Source: Streptomyces sp. ITFR-21 (lineage in GTDB: Bacteria > Actinomycetota > Actinomycetes > Streptomycetales > Streptomycetaceae). From it: a stretch of DNA of 64,000 nt. Positions 32,513 through 52,735 of the stretch are shown one piece after another. Position numbers and translations under genes: made by a program. Where the stretch lies: assembly GCF_031844685.1 (NCBI RefSeq), contig NZ_CP134605.1, positions 2,500,001 through 2,564,000 of the forward strand, written 5' to 3'. Positions within the stretch are counted from its first letter, which is position 1, and the number at the start of each line of letters is the position of its first letter. The notes under the pieces were generated by a model that was not told the DNA's origin, ran no database searches, and saw only the letters and a program-made list of their open reading frames with translations.

Positions 32513-33169
32513 TCAGTCGAGTCTGCGCTCGTACCAGCGGGACAGCATCGTCAGGGGCAGGCAGATGACGAAGTAGACGGCGAGTACGGAGCCGAGGATG
32601 GGTACCGCGTGCGTGGACCCGCCGGACAGGGTGAGGCGTTCGATGGAGCGCTGTGCCGCTTCGAGGATGTCGAGCAGGCCGATGACGGCGGCCAGCGAGG
32701 TCTGCTGGGTGAGGTTGACGACGAGTCCGATCACCGGGGGGAGCGCCCGCCGGGTGGCCTGGGGCAGCAGGACGTACCGCATGCGTCCGGTCCAGGAGAA
32801 GCCGAGCGCCGCGGCGGCCTCGGCCTGTCCGCGGGGCACCGACTGGACGGCCCCGCGGACGAGTTCGGCCATGTTGGCGCTGCCCCACAGGGACAGTCCG
32901 ATGACGGCGGCGCTGAAGGTGTCCACCCGCAGCCCGATGATGGGCAGCACGAAGAAGATGAAGTAGAGGATGACGATGATCGGCAGGCCCCGCCAGATCT
33001 CGACGTAGGTCCGGGCCAGGGCCCGCGCGGGCTTGCTGGGCAGGGTGAGGACGGCGCCGAGCACGGTCCCCGCCAGCAGGCTGGTGGCGATGCTGGCCAG
33101 CGCCAGCAGGACCGTTTCCCGCAGACCGGTGGCGAGGTAGTCGGCGACGGGTCCGACCCATGGGGGCAT
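32513..33169 (-). CDS. Polar amino acid ABC permease 1
   Basis: 218 residues from ATG 33169, whose A is shared with the TGA of the preceding permease. His/Glu/Gln/Arg/opine class (HisM) permease: TYVEIWRGLPIIVILYFIFF, AYVSEL-like ANMAELVRGAVQSVPRGQAE and AAAALGFSWTGRMRYVLLPQ, with five to six helices. Works as a heterodimer with the gene upstream. Confidence 0.92.
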   Translation of the reverse strand: MPPWVGPVADYLATGLRETVLLALASIATSLLAGTVLGAVLTLPSKPARALARTYVEIWRGLPIIVILYFIFFVLPIIGLRVDTFSAAVIGLSLWGSANMAELVRGAVQSVPRGQAEAAAALGFSWTGRMRYVLLPQATRRALPPVIGLVVNLTQQTSLAAVIGLLDILEAAQRSIERLTLSGGSTHAVPILGSVLAVYFVICLPLTMLSRWYERRLD

Positions 33170-33849
33170 CAGTGACCTCCGGGGATCGCGTAGCGGCGCT
33201 CGACGGCTCCGGCGCCCAGGGACAGCAGCCAGACCAGGGCCAGGTAGATGACGCCGATGGCGAGGAACATCTCGAAGACCCGGAAGGTGACGGCGACGAT
33301 GTTGACGGCGGTGTCGGTGAGTTCGGGATAGCTGATTGCGACCATGAACGACGAGTTCTTGAAGACGGAGATCAGGATGTTGGTGACCGACGGCAGGGCG
33401 ATGCGGGCGCCGAGCGGGAGGGTCACGTTGCGGAAGGCGGCCAGCCGGGGGAAGCCGAGGGCCCGGCAGGCCTCGACGTAGCCGCCTTCGACGGCTTCGA
33501 AGCCGGCCCGGAAGTTCTCCACGTTGTAGGCGCCGCCCCACAGCAGCAGCGACAGCCAGCCGACGGTGAAGCCGTCGAACTGCAGCCCGGTCTCGGGGAG
33601 CGCGAAGTACAGGAAGAAGATCTGCACCAGCAGCGGGGTGTTGCGGAACACCTCGACGTAGACCGTGATCAGCTGCCGGGCGACCGGTATCCGCAGCGCG
33701 CTGACCGCGCCGAGCAGTACCCCGACGAGCAGGGCGCCGGCCATGCCGAGGGCGCTGATGGACAGCGTCCGCAGCAGGCCGGAGCCGAGCTCGCCGAAAT
33801 GGTGGGCGATGAAGCCCGTCTCGAAGTGGTAGCCGGAGGCTTCGGGCAT
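33169..33849 (-). CDS. Polar amino acid ABC permease 2
   Basis: 226 residues from ATG 33849, two bases after the stop of the binding-protein gene. HisM-class motifs: VYVEVFRNTPLLVQIFFLYF, AYNVENFRAGFEAVEGGYVE and ACRALGFPRLAAFRNVTLPL. Overlaps permease 1 by one base. Membrane partner in the importer. Confidence 0.92.
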   Translation of the reverse strand: MPEASGYHFETGFIAHHFGELGSGLLRTLSISALGMAGALLVGVLLGAVSALRIPVARQLITVYVEVFRNTPLLVQIFFLYFALPETGLQFDGFTVGWLSLLLWGGAYNVENFRAGFEAVEGGYVEACRALGFPRLAAFRNVTLPLGARIALPSVTNILISVFKNSSFMVAISYPELTDTAVNIVAVTFRVFEMFLAIGVIYLALVWLLSLGAGAVERRYAIPGGH

Positions 33850-33851
33850 GC

Positions 33852-34790
33852 TCAGCACTTCAGGGTGTCGCCGGACGGGTAGGTCAGCTGGCTGCCGGGG
33901 CGGGGGACGAACTTGGCGAACTGCTGCTGCACGGCGGTGTCGGTGACGGTCTTCTGGAACTCGGTCCAGAAGAAGTCGGCCTGCTGCAGGTGGGCGAGGG
34001 CCGCGTTGACCCAGGCGAGCATCTGCGCGTCGCCCTTGCGGACGCCCATACCCCAGGGGCTGTCGGCCTTGGCGTCGCCGACGACCTTGAGCTTGGGGTT
34101 CTTCGCCGCCAGGTCGAGCAGCAGGGTGTCGTCCTGGGCGAAGGCGACGCCGCGGTTCTGGTTCAGCGCGGTCAGCGCCTGGCTGGTCTCGGTGAAGAGC
34201 GTCTGCTTGACGTCCTTCATGCACTGGGTCAGCCAGAGGCTGGCGGTGGCGCCGGAGATGCTGATCACGGACTTGCCGGACAGCTGGTCGAAGTCGGTGA
34301 TCGGGGAGTCCTTGGGCACCAGCAGTTTCACGCCGCTGTCGAAGTAGGGGGTGGTGAAGTCGATGGTCTGGGCGCGCTCCGCGGTGTAGTTCATCGTCGC
34401 TTCGATCAGGTCGATGCGCTTGGAGTCCAGGAACGACACCCGGTTGGCCCCGGTCACGCAGGTCAGGCTGAGCGCGTTGGGGTCGCCGAACGCGTAGGCG
34501 GCGAGCTGGTGGGCGATGTCGACCTCGAAGCCGGCGTTCTTCGACGACTCGTCGATGTATCCGAACGGCGGGTAGTCGCACTTGACGCCCACGGTGAGCT
34601 TGCCCTTGCTCTTCAGCTCGTCGGGCAGCGGCACGCCGACGTCGACGGCGCCGCCGGCTGCCGTGGTGGTGGTCGTACCCGAAGCACTGGCGGACGGGGA
34701 GGCGTCGTCGGAGGAGGACGAGGAGGAGCAGCCGGCGGCGAGGATCATGACCATCGCCGCACCGATGACAATGCCGAATCTCGATCTCAA
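33852..34790 (-). CDS. Amino acid-binding lipoprotein (family 3)
   Basis: 312 residues from a TTG at 34790, chosen because GAAGGAAG sits eight bases upstream and the product then has a normal lipoprotein signal ending in MILAAGC; no ATG or GTG gives as good a fit. A Ser/Thr linker precedes the two-lobe domain: KLTVGVKCDYPPFGYID, NAGFEVDIAHQLAAYAFG, the family pattern IDLIEATMNYTAERAQTIDF and TTPYF. Binds polar amino acids; specificity not readable. Confidence 0.9.
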   Translation of the reverse strand: MRSRFGIVIGAAMVMILAAGCSSSSSSDDASPSASASGTTTTTAAGGAVDVGVPLPDELKSKGKLTVGVKCDYPPFGYIDESSKNAGFEVDIAHQLAAYAFGDPNALSLTCVTGANRVSFLDSKRIDLIEATMNYTAERAQTIDFTTPYFDSGVKLLVPKDSPITDFDQLSGKSVISISGATASLWLTQCMKDVKQTLFTETSQALTALNQNRGVAFAQDDTLLLDLAAKNPKLKVVGDAKADSPWGMGVRKGDAQMLAWVNAALAHLQQADFFWTEFQKTVTDTAVQQQFAKFVPRPGSQLTYPSGDTLKC

Positions 34791-34822
34791 GGGGGTGACT
34801 TCCTTCTGCTCGGTCGTGCTGG

Positions 34823-35611
34823 CTATCGGAGAACCTTGTGCAGGAATTGACGGGTACGGTCGTTGCGGGGCCGGTCCAGGACGTCGGCCGGGCGGCCCTG
34901 CTCGGCGATCACACCGCCGTCGACGAACACCAGGCGGTCGCCGAGTTCGCGGGCGAAGCCCATCTCGTGGGTGACGCACAGCATCGTCATCCCGGACCGG
35001 GCGAGGTCGCGCATCACGTCGAGGACCTCGCTGACCAGCTCGGGGTCGAGCGCCGAGGTCACCTCGTCGAAGAGCATCACGTGCGGGTCCATCATCAGCG
35101 CGCGGGCGATGGCGACCCGCTGCTGCTGCCCGCCCGACAGCTGCCGCGGATGGGCGTCGGCCTTGTCGGCCAGGCCCACCCGGGCCAGCAGCGCGGCGGC
35201 CCGCTCCCGCGCCCGGTCCTTGGGCATCCGCAGCAGCTTGCGTGGCGCCAGGGTGAGGTTGTCGACGGCGGACAGGTGGGGGAAGAGGTTGAACTGCTGG
35301 AAGACCATGCCGATCCGCCGGCGTACCCGGTCCAGGTCGACGCCGCGCCCGGTCAGGTCCTCCCCTTCCAGCAGGACCTGGCCGGCGGTCACCGGCTCCA
35401 GCAGGTTGACGCAGCGCAGCAGGGTGCTCTTGCCGCCGCCGGACGGGCCGATGACGGCGACCACCTCACCGCGGGACACCGTCAGGTCGACGCCTTTGAG
35501 CACCTCGACGCTGCCGTACGACTTGTGGACCGCTCGCAGCTCCACCATCGGCGGCGCGGGGTCGGCGGGCGGCGGGGCGGCCGGGTCCTTCACGCCCGGC
35601 GCGTCCGTCAT
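34823..35611 (-). CDS. Polar amino acid ABC transporter ATPase
   Basis: 262 residues from ATG 35611, overlapping the stop of the threonine-synthase-like gene by four bases (ATGA). GlnQ-type motifs: Walker [11 protein letters not shown]-loop [17 protein letters not shown], signature LSGGQQQR, Walker [17 protein letters not shown] and CVTHEMGFA. The first ~22 residues are a Pro/Ala/Asp-rich extension. Confidence 0.93.
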
Positions 35612-36909
35612 CGCGGTGTCCCCGGTCCGGGGCCCGCGCCGGTGGTTCCGGCGGGGGCGGCCGGGGCGGTGGCCTCCGGCGGCAGGTCGGCGTCGCGCGC
35701 CAGCAGGGGCGGTTGGCCGACCTGGAGGGAGTCCTCGTACTTCAGCGCGCTGCCGGTGTTGAGGACCAGGACCTCCTCGTCGCCGCCGAGCCACCCGTCG
35801 GCGCGCAGCCGGCGTACCGCGGCCAGCGTCGCGGCCCCTTCCGGGCACATCAGCACGCCGTCGGCCGCTGCGCAGGCCGCCTGTTCGGCGAGGATGTCCC
35901 GGTCGTCGACGGCGACCGCGGTGCCCTTGCTGTCCCGGAGAGCGGACAGGATCAGGAAGTCGCCGAGCGCGGCGCCGACGTTGATGCCGAACGCGACCGT
36001 GCGCGCCTGGTCGGCCGGCCAGGGTTCCGCGGTCTCGGCCCCCGACGCGAAGGCCCGCACGATCGGCGCGCAGCCGCTGGCCTGCACGGCCACGAACCGG
36101 GGCAGCCGGCCGGTGATCCAGCCCAGCGCGGCCAGTTCGTCGAGCGCCTTGCGGATGCCGATCAGGCCCACACCGCCGCCGGTCGGATACACCACGACGT
36201 CCGGCACCCGCCAGCCGAACTGCTCCGCGATCTCCAGGCCCATCGTCTTCTTGCCCTCGATGCGGTACGGCTCGCGCAGCGTCGCGGCGCTGAACCAGCC
36301 GTGCCGGACCGCCTGTCCGGCGATGCGTCCGGCGTCGCCGATCAGGCCGTCCACCAGGTAGACCCGGGCGCCGGCGGCCAGCGACTCCTTGCGGGTCACC
36401 TGCGGGGCGTCCTGCGGCATCACCACCAGACACTCGGTTTCGGCGCGTGCGGCGTAAGTGGCCCACGCGGCGCCGGCGTTGCCGTTGGTCGGCAGTGTCA
36501 GGTGCCGCAGCCCGAGTTCGCGCGCCCGGGAGACGCCGACCGCGGCGCCGCGCGCCTTGAAGCTGCCGGTCGGCAGCATCCCCTCGTCCTTGGCGAGCAG
36601 GCCCGGCACCCCGATCCGCCGGCCGTACGCGGTCAGCGGCACGATCGGTGTCCAACCCTCGCCGAGGGTGGTCACGTTCGCGGGATCCCGGACCGGCAGC
36701 AGCTCCCGGTACCGCCACAGGTCGGCGCCGCGCGCGGCGATGTCCGCGGGCCGGACCGAGGCCCGGACCCGGTCGAGGTCGTAGCGGGCGAGCAGCGGCG
36801 AACCGCAGCGGCACACGTTCTGCGGCACGTCGGCGTCGTACCGCTCGCCGCACCGTCCGCACTCCAGGTGGGTCAGCCCGCTGGTCCAGGTCCCGTCGTC
36901 GGGGTACAA
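35608..36909 (-). CDS. Threonine-synthase-like PLP enzyme of the transporter cluster
   Basis: 433 residues from a TTG at 36909 with GGAGGT six bases before it; ATG 36966 is in frame but has no ribosome site. It has the amino-terminal metal-ribbon cysteines of long ThrC proteins (C17, C20, C33, C35), PLP lysine K118 in [10 protein letters not shown], and glycine-rich phosphate loops ([11 protein letters not shown]). ThrC proper makes threonine from O-phosphohomoserine, but GSFKARG differs from the HSFKDR of the true ThrC at 50938. Relatives act as threonine/serine dehydratase-type, cysteate or diaminopropionate enzymes. With a peptidase and an amino acid importer, a catabolic lyase is likely. 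Confidence 0.82.
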
Positions 36910-37062
36910 CCGGTGACCTCCTCTCTCTGTCTGGTCCGTCTGGTCTGTCCGGCCCGACCGGCTCATCCATCCGACCGGGTCATCCGGTCGGGTCGGGCGG
37001 GGTCGGCCGGGGTCGGCCGGCCGGTGGTGGGGGACGGGTTCCGCCGTCCCCCACCGCGTGGA

Positions 37063-47874: not shown

Positions 47875-50665
<2,791 letters not shown>

Positions 50666-50941
50666 TCAGCCGCCGGCGACCGCCGGAATGATCGAGACGC
50701 TGGCGCCGTCCGGAACCGCCGTCTCCAGTCCCTCGGAAAAACGCACGTCGTCGTCGTTCACATAAACGTTCACAAAGCGACGGAGCTTTCCGGCGTCGTC
50801 CAGAACCCGCGCCGAAATACCCGTGTGGTTCTTCTCCAGCGACTCGATGACCTCGGCCAGCGTCGTCCCCTCGGCCGGCACTTCGGCCTGGCCGCCGGTG
50901 TAGGTACGGAGAATCGTCGGGATGCGAACAGAAGCAGTCAT
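50666..50941 (-). CDS. MoaD/ThiS-like sulfur-carrier protein
   Basis: 91 residues from ATG 50941, overlapping the thrC stop by four bases (ATGA). A ubiquitin-like fold (VRIPTILRTYTGGQAEVPAE, LAEVIESLEKNH, RRFVNVYVNDDDVRFSEGLE) ends in the diagnostic IIPAVAGG. The Gly-Gly end is adenylated and turned into a thiocarboxylate that hands over sulfide. Paired with a PLP enzyme under SAM riboswitch control, it resembles the CysO-CysM and HcyS sulfur-donor pairs. Confidence 0.92.
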   Translation of the reverse strand: MTASVRIPTILRTYTGGQAEVPAEGTTLAEVIESLEKNHTGISARVLDDAGKLRRFVNVYVNDDDVRFSEGLETAVPDGASVSIIPAVAGG

Positions 50942-52239
50942 GCGAGGCCAGCCTCTCGGAAAGCGGCAACAGTCGGGCGGATGGTCGCGGTGGGTCCGGT
51001 GGTCGGCGCCACCGCGTCCAGAGTCTTCAGTCCGTCGCCGGTGTTGAGTACGACGGTCTCGGCGGCCGGGTCGAGCTGCCCGGTCTCGATCAGCTTCTTG
51101 AGGACACCCACGGTCACCCCGCCGGCGGTCTCCCCGAAGATCCCCTCGGTCCGCGCGAGCAGTTTGATCGCGGCCACGATCTCCTCGTCGTCCACGTCCT
51201 CGACCGCGCCGCCGGTACGCCGGGTGATGTCCAGGACGTACGGCCCGTCGGCGGGGTTGCCGATCGCCAGCGACTTGGCGATGGTGTCCGGCTTCACCGG
51301 CCGCACCACGTCGTGCCCGGCCTTGTACGCCGCCGACACCGGCGAGCAGCCCGCGGCCTGGGCACCGTAGATCCGGTACGGCTTGTCCGGGACCAGGCCG
51401 AGCTTGATCAGCTCCTGCAGGCCCTTGTCGATCTTGGTGAGCTGGGAGCCGGAGGCGATCGGGATGACCAGGTTGTCCGGCAGCCGCCAGCCGAGCTGCT
51501 CGGCGATCTCGTAGGCCAGGGTCTTGGAGCCCTCGCCGTAGTACGGGCGCAGGTTGACGTTGACGAAGCCCCAGCCCTCGCCGATCGGGTCGCCGATCAG
51601 CTCCGAGCAGAAGCGGTTCACATCGTCGTACGAGCCCTCGATACCGACCAGTTCACCGCCGTAGACCGCGGCCATGACGACCTTGCCGGCCTCCAGGTCG
51701 TGCGGGATGAAGACGCAGCTGCGCAGGCCCGAGCGGGCCGCGGCGGCGCCGACCGCACCGGCAAGGTTGCCGGTGGACGAGCAGGACAGGGTGGTCAGGC
51801 CGAAGGTGCGGGCCGCCTCCAGGGCGATGGCGACGACCCGGTCCTTGAAGGAGTGCGTCGGGTTGCCGGAGTCGTCCTTGACGTACAGGCCGCCGGTGAT
51901 GCCCAGCTCGCGGGCGAGGTTGTCGGTCTTGACCAGCTTGGTCCAGCCCGGGTTGATGTTCGGCCGGGCGGCGTCGTCGGCGATGTCGGCGGGCACCGGC
52001 AGCAGCGGCGCGTACCGCCAGATGCTGGTCGGGCCGGCCTCGATCCGGCGGCGCAGGTCCTCGGGGTCGCCGAGCGGAAGATCGTATGCCACTTCGAGCG
52101 GCCCGAAACACTCCTGACAGGCGAAGATCGGGCTGAGCGGGAAGCGGGTGCCGCACTCGCGGCAGGACAGCGCGGCAGCCGGTCCGAACGCGGCGCCGAA
52201 GGGAGTGTCGTGGGTACTGGCGACGGTCTGCGCAGCCAT
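50938..52239 (-). CDS. thrC: Threonine synthase, possibly a thiocarboxylate-dependent homocysteine-type enzyme
   Basis: 433 residues from ATG 52239. Zinc-ribbon cysteines C26/C29 and C41/C44, PLP lysine K132 in GNPTHSFKDR and the phosphate loop SCSSTGNLAGAVGA are typical of ThrC, which turns O-phosphohomoserine into threonine. Two contextual points are unusual: the gene is directly behind a SAM-I riboswitch, whose closing stem overlaps its ribosome site, and it is translationally coupled to a sulfur-carrier protein. Both would suit an enzyme adding sulfide to O-phosphohomoserine to make homocysteine. That role is inference; plain threonine synthase remains the family reading. Confidence 0.88.
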   Translation of the reverse strand: MAAQTVASTHDTPFGAAFGPAAALSCRECGTRFPLSPIFACQECFGPLEVAYDLPLGDPEDLRRRIEAGPTSIWRYAPLLPVPADIADDAARPNINPGWTKLVKTDNLARELGITGGLYVKDDSGNPTHSFKDRVVAIALEAARTFGLTTLSCSSTGNLAGAVGAAAARSGLRSCVFIPHDLEAGKVVMAAVYGGELVGIEGSYDDVNRFCSELIGDPIGEGWGFVNVNLRPYYGEGSKTLAYEIAEQLGWRLPDNLVIPIASGSQLTKIDKGLQELIKLGLVPDKPYRIYGAQAAGCSPVSAAYKAGHDVVRPVKPDTIAKSLAIGNPADGPYVLDITRRTGGAVEDVDDEEIVAAIKLLARTEGIFGETAGGVTVGVLKKLIETGQLDPAAETVVLNTGDGLKTLDAVAPTTGPTATIRPTVAAFREAGLA

Positions 52240-52258
52240 GATGGCGAGGCCCTTTCTC

Positions 52259-52384
52259 CTCATCTTCCCCGTGGCGTACGTCGCCACGAGACGGAATTGG
52301 CACCTTCCCCACCGTGTGACCTCGCGGTCGGCGGGAGGGTTGCCGGGGCTTCAACGGGCCGTTCCCTCTGCCCCTCTGGATGAG
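52259..52384 (-). ncRNA. SAM-I (S-box) riboswitch of the thrC operon
   Basis: Read on the minus strand, all hallmark segments occur in order: CTCATCCAGAGG (P1/P2 start), GGCAGAGGGA, TGAAGCCCCGGCAACC, AGGTGCCAATTCC, and GGGGAAGATGAG closing P1. P1 pairs 52384-52379 with 52264-52259. The GAGGAG next to P1's 3' strand is 17-20 bases before ATG 52239, so SAM binding would hide the ribosome site and switch translation off. Recognition is by consensus comparison from memory and is strong. Confidence 0.93.
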
Positions 52385-52735
52385 CGGTATGGCACCGGAC
52401 ACGGTGGTCCGGGCGTTTGTCCAGCGGTGCCGCCCCCGCTCGGGAGCGGTGCCGCACGGCACGACCCCGAGGTGCGGGGCACGTACGTGTTGCTCAAGAC
52501 TGTAACGGAGAAGTGTCCGTTCGGACCGCTCCGTCCGTACCGCGAGACGGGTCGAATGGATCACACCGGCCGCGCCACGGCCGCGCCGCGGAGGCCCGCG
52601 GCGGGGCCGTGACCGGCGCTGTCACCGGCACCGTGGCCGGGGTAGCGGCGGGGGTCGCGGCCCGGAGACGCGGCCGGGGGGCGGCGGCTGCCGGGCCGCC
52701 GCCGGTTCCCGGCGGGTTCCCGGCGGACCTTGACT

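Follow-up and report, generated by a model that had tools for sequence, protein, structure and literature searches.

A SAM-I riboswitch heads a predicted MetM–MetO methionine operon in Streptomyces sp. ITFR-21

In Streptomyces sp. ITFR-21, a threonine-synthase-like gene and a sulfur-carrier gene lie together on the minus strand behind a SAM-I (S-box) riboswitch, and this locus is very probably the SAM-repressed MetM–MetO methionine operon of Streptomycetaceae. The window is the whole stretch of 64,000 nt that was analyzed (NZ_CP134605.1, 2,500,001 to 2,564,000); positions below refer to it, and genome coordinates carry the prefix C1. The orthology and the paralogy of the enzyme are clear from sequence. 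The features are:

52257..52386, minus strand: SAM-I (S-box) riboswitch aptamer, RF00162 (cmscan 82.5 bits; sole SAM-I match genome-wide)
52379..52384, minus strand: P1 5′ strand, CUCAUC (sequence, fold, conservation in relatives' leaders)
52259..52264, minus strand: P1 3′ strand, GAUGAG (sequence, fold, conservation)
52251..52257, minus strand: probable ribosome-binding site, AGAAAGG (sequence; small variation among relatives)
50938..52239, minus strand: metM-type gene, profile name threonine synthase (TIGR00260, PF00291; clade apart from ThrC)
50666..50941, minus strand: metO-type gene, ThiS-family sulfur carrier (PF02597; C-terminus VAGG)

RESULTS

The riboswitch and the mode of control

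On the minus strand, the riboswitch (52386–52257) is followed by the thrC-like gene (52239–50938) and then by the carrier gene (50941–50666). The S-box consensus that a preliminary description had recognized in the leader of thrC corresponds to a full-length SAM-I aptamer: the Infernal cmscan match to RF00162 at 52386–52257(−) spans model positions 1–108 of 108, with 82.5 bits (E = 6.1e-18) for a gathering score of 44.4. The RF00162 search of the entire genome (7.36 Mb) returns this copy alone.

The P1 stem is formed, according to sequence and fold, by six pairs between CUCAUC (52384–52379) and GAUGAG (52264–52259). The closing stem was said to abut a GAGGAG; P1 is indeed located there and overlaps the motif, GAGGAG (52261–52256) sharing three bases with the 3′ P1 strand. 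The 16S tail is matched better by AGAAAGG (52257–52251), which lies 11 nt ahead of the start codon (ATG, 52239), with one base between it and the 3′ P1 strand. In a pattern search, GCTCATCC and GATGAGGA are retained, with the aptamer core matched, in 77 of 80 Streptomycetaceae leaders (the aptamer-core pattern does not match L035, L040, and L058).

We did not find an intrinsic terminator in 50300–52700, and a terminator was on this ground rejected as the expression platform. In the fold calculations, AGAAAGG is mostly unpaired when P1 is forbidden and largely unpaired with P1 formed too, so that the fold alone is no proof of sequestration; we infer that the remaining basis for it is the overlap of P1 with GAGGAG together with steric blocking. 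SAM-dependent translational control of the operon is a plausible and natural reading, favored by that overlap and by the terminator result.

A longer GTG frame, from 52287, was considered as the coding start and rejected. Because the relatives have a common N-terminus at ATG 52239 (with variable spacing upstream), the coding start is placed at this ATG.

The enzyme and its separation from ThrC

The thrC-like product has 433 amino acids, with N-terminal Cys-X2-Cys pairs and the PLP motif HSFKDR. It scores 254 bits with TIGR00260, the threonine synthase equivalog (cut-off 167), and 219 bits with PF00291; its nearest solved relatives are threonine synthases and not cysteine synthases. The alternative suggested by the TIGR00260 score, which is over the cut-off, is a true threonine synthase with a chance SAM riboswitch, through which SAM would set how much O-phosphohomoserine goes to threonine and how much to methionine. 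The related ThrC of Microcystis, a cyanobacterial protein, did form threonine in vitro, and methionine was not increased by it (PMC12172450), so that family membership alone does not fix the activity.

This alternative is nevertheless very improbable. The search for another thrC, proposed in the preliminary description, leads to a separate canonical ThrC in the same genome (G000:C1:5085185), with 319 bits versus 255 for the window copy, and a further ThrC-family match at E ≤ 1e-40 is present in 39 of 40 MetM genomes, the exception being G274. A tree was built from 41 proteins (27 MetM-type, 10 ThrC, and 4 others); each group makes up one side of a branch, and for both MetM and ThrC the support is 100/100. 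Five positions are fixed in 27/27 MetM and are fixed differently in 10/10 ThrC: L159 (Thr in ThrC), Y234 (Arg), S263 (Asn), K269 (Ala), and K322 (Thr). Several of them presumably line the ThrC substrate pocket, which we take as a lead only. The window MetM lies outside the ThrC clade and departs from the fixed ThrC residues at these five positions. The tight linkage of a carrier gene also argues against a threonine synthase. Altogether, the evidence indicates that the thrC-like gene of the window is not the threonine synthase of the genome.

The PLP fold and the SFKDR motif are common to MetM and the canonical ThrC. The N-terminal Cys region, on the other hand, is absent from the ThrC rows as extracted, and ThrC has STGNTS and NPxRxEGQKT, where MetM has STGNLA and a Tyr for the Arg. 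The TIGR00260 model does not separate the two, the window MetM being above its curated cut-off. About one-third of the sampled Actinomycetota genomes have a gene named threonine synthase by curated models but placed in a clade of its own, connected with methionine supply. Because TIGR00260 accepts MetM proteins, automatic annotation can give them the wrong name and show methionine synthesis as incomplete when it is not; the signature of the MetM clade, with the riboswitch linkage, would permit correct naming.

The window contains a third ThrC-like protein (35608–36966, minus strand), with an N-terminal Cys region, which the tree places outside both the MetM and the ThrC clades. It scores 595 bits with NF006050 (PRK08197, threonine synthase; cut-off 303). 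Immediately downstream is an ABC transporter ATP-binding domain (frame 34823–36970), followed by further transporter-like frames (33169–34979).

The carrier

The carrier ORF (91 amino acids, start at 50941) matches PF02597 of the ThiS family with 69.6 bits (E = 3e-19) and ends in VAGG. The stop of the thrC-like gene and the start of the carrier have ATGA in common, in agreement with the four-base overlap with a MoaD/ThiS-like gene ending in Gly-Gly noted earlier. By sequence, the nearest solved chains are 3dwg_C of Mycobacterium tuberculosis and 4n6e_B.

These nearest solved relatives are CysO-type carriers, and MetO is 57% identical to the CysO-like protein of the genome itself. It may therefore be asked whether the product is some other sulfur amino acid, or whether the pair supplies sulfur elsewhere, such as to a second route to cysteine, with SAM control arising only from competition for sulfide. 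We consider this highly unlikely. The Gly-Gly carrier and the CysO-type carrier are different genes, the latter belonging to a separate CysM–CysO–Mec+-type cluster near C1:2079000–2080200; MetM is related to threonine synthases, as seen above; SAM-I control points to methionine; and the MetM activity, as reported in PMC12172450, is homocysteine synthesis.

Conservation of the riboswitch and of the gene pair

Among 296 Actinomycetota genomes searched, about 100 have a match to the window protein with at least 49% identity and the rest have at most 39%. The 80 closest named loci all belong to Streptomycetaceae, with 82%–94% identity (94% and 91% for the two closest). In all 80, metO is on the same strand, 0–152 nt downstream from metM. 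In a further, phylum-wide sample (L109–L137), metO occurs within 187 nt in 28 of 29 loci; since L109–L116 are again Streptomycetaceae, the loci outside the family number 21, with metO in 20.

A SAM-I riboswitch is present upstream in all six named Streptomycetaceae loci scanned and in 23 of the 29 phylum loci. SAM-I was not found above the gathering score at the other six MetM–MetO loci of that sample (L121, L122, L123, L125, L128, and L133), four of which (L121, L123, L125, and L128) are from one family, f17.

At L118 (G204:C1:5033381–5034625), a MetM with SAM-I upstream occurs without adjacent metO. The carrier of that genome that most resembles MetO (54% identity) lies at C1:3089746, nearly 2 Mb from the metM. 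In Nonomuraea, a MetM relative with 76% identity is found at 11810241–11811434 of NZ_LT559118.1, with no gene listed under the match; that record, of 11.85 Mb, is filed under plasmids but, judged by its size, looks like a chromosome.

Partner genes and a second route

The genome encodes a ThiF–rhodanese protein of the MoeZ type (G000:C1:4786417) and MetH (1419 bits). It also encodes an O-acetylhomoserine sulfhydrylase (MetY; 811 bits to NF005872, cut-off 703) adjoining MetX (539 bits to NF047917, cut-off 475) at C1:113.6–116.1 kb; no Rfam match was found beside this pair. Two predicted routes to homocysteine, MetM–MetO and the canonical MetX–MetY, would then coexist. Because of the second, deletion of metM alone might give no methionine requirement.

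In a comparison of 40 + 40 genomes hand-picked from the Actinomycetota search list, MetX is present in 12/40 MetM-positive and 26/40 MetM-negative genomes (Fisher p = 0.003, kinship ignored). The lower frequency of MetX in MetM-positive genomes only hints at replacement of one route by the other. In the family of the window, MetX occurs in four of the nine genomes compared and is absent from five.

DISCUSSION

The proposed sequence of events is as follows. The C-terminal Gly-Gly of MetO would be activated and converted to a thiocarboxylate, for which the MoeZ-type enzyme is the most likely candidate. MetM, a paralog of threonine synthase, would then use the MetO sulfur and O-phosphohomoserine to form homocysteine, and MetH would methylate homocysteine to methionine. 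Homocysteine synthase activity is described in the literature for Streptomyces and is expected for the copy of this strain. Plentiful SAM would bind the SAM-I aptamer and stabilize P1, and P1, overlapping GAGGAG and abutting AGAAAGG, would block translation of the operon.

Three observations count against the MetM–MetO reading: with MetX–MetY in the genome, MetM–MetO is not the sole predicted route; the related ThrC of Microcystis formed threonine; and the locus of G204 combines SAM-I and MetM in the absence of an adjacent metO. A tentative and rather doubtful view is that, in strains with two routes, the SAM-I-controlled MetM–MetO is the SAM-repressed methionine supply and MetX–MetY serves another condition, and that lineages like G204 lost the dedicated carrier, MetM borrowing the CysO-type one.

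Comparison with known systems

The closest known system is the MetM–MetO pair of S. albulus. In a 2025 paper (PMC12172450), MetM, a homocysteine synthase of Streptomyces, is credited to Hasebe et al. 2024 (Appl Environ Microbiol 90:e01247-24), metO of S. albulus is named where a gene of the sulfur-carrier family is described, and a SAM riboswitch is stated to occur upstream of the S. albulus metM. The window locus has the same elements: a threonine-synthase-like enzyme distinct from the ThrC of the genome, an adjoining carrier with a Gly-Gly end, and an upstream SAM riboswitch, in a member of the same family. Compared with the description given in PMC12172450, no difference was found. By that description and by every available test, the locus is the predicted ortholog of S. 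albulus MetM–MetO. MetO is reportedly the thiocarboxylated sulfur donor, and the pair is said to be widespread in Streptomyces.

The use of the carrier thiocarboxylate by the ThrC homolog for homocysteine, which the preliminary description had offered as a new suggestion, was already published in 2024, judging from the account in PMC12172450. For the present strain, that suggestion gains support from the true SAM-I aptamer, the separate ThrC, the Gly-Gly carrier, the MoeZ-type enzyme, the deep conservation, and the MetM literature.

With CysM–CysO–Mec+ of M. tuberculosis, the common points are a PLP enzyme and a ThiS-fold carrier with a Gly-Gly end, the window carrier being nearest to 3dwg_C. 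The window enzyme differs in being on the threonine synthase branch and has no adjoining Mec+ gene; the genome's own cluster of that type sits apart from the window locus. In the methionine route of Wolinella with HcyS, a carrier thiocarboxylate is likewise the sulfur source for homocysteine, as proposed for the window pair; HcyS, however, is of the MetY type and acts on O-acetylhomoserine, whereas the window enzyme is of the ThrC type, with O-phosphohomoserine as the expected substrate. MetM–MetO with a SAM riboswitch is thus a known system, published in 2024, to which the present analysis adds the MetX–MetY pair without an adjoining riboswitch, the active-site signature specific to the MetM clade, and the overlap of P1 with GAGGAG without a terminator.
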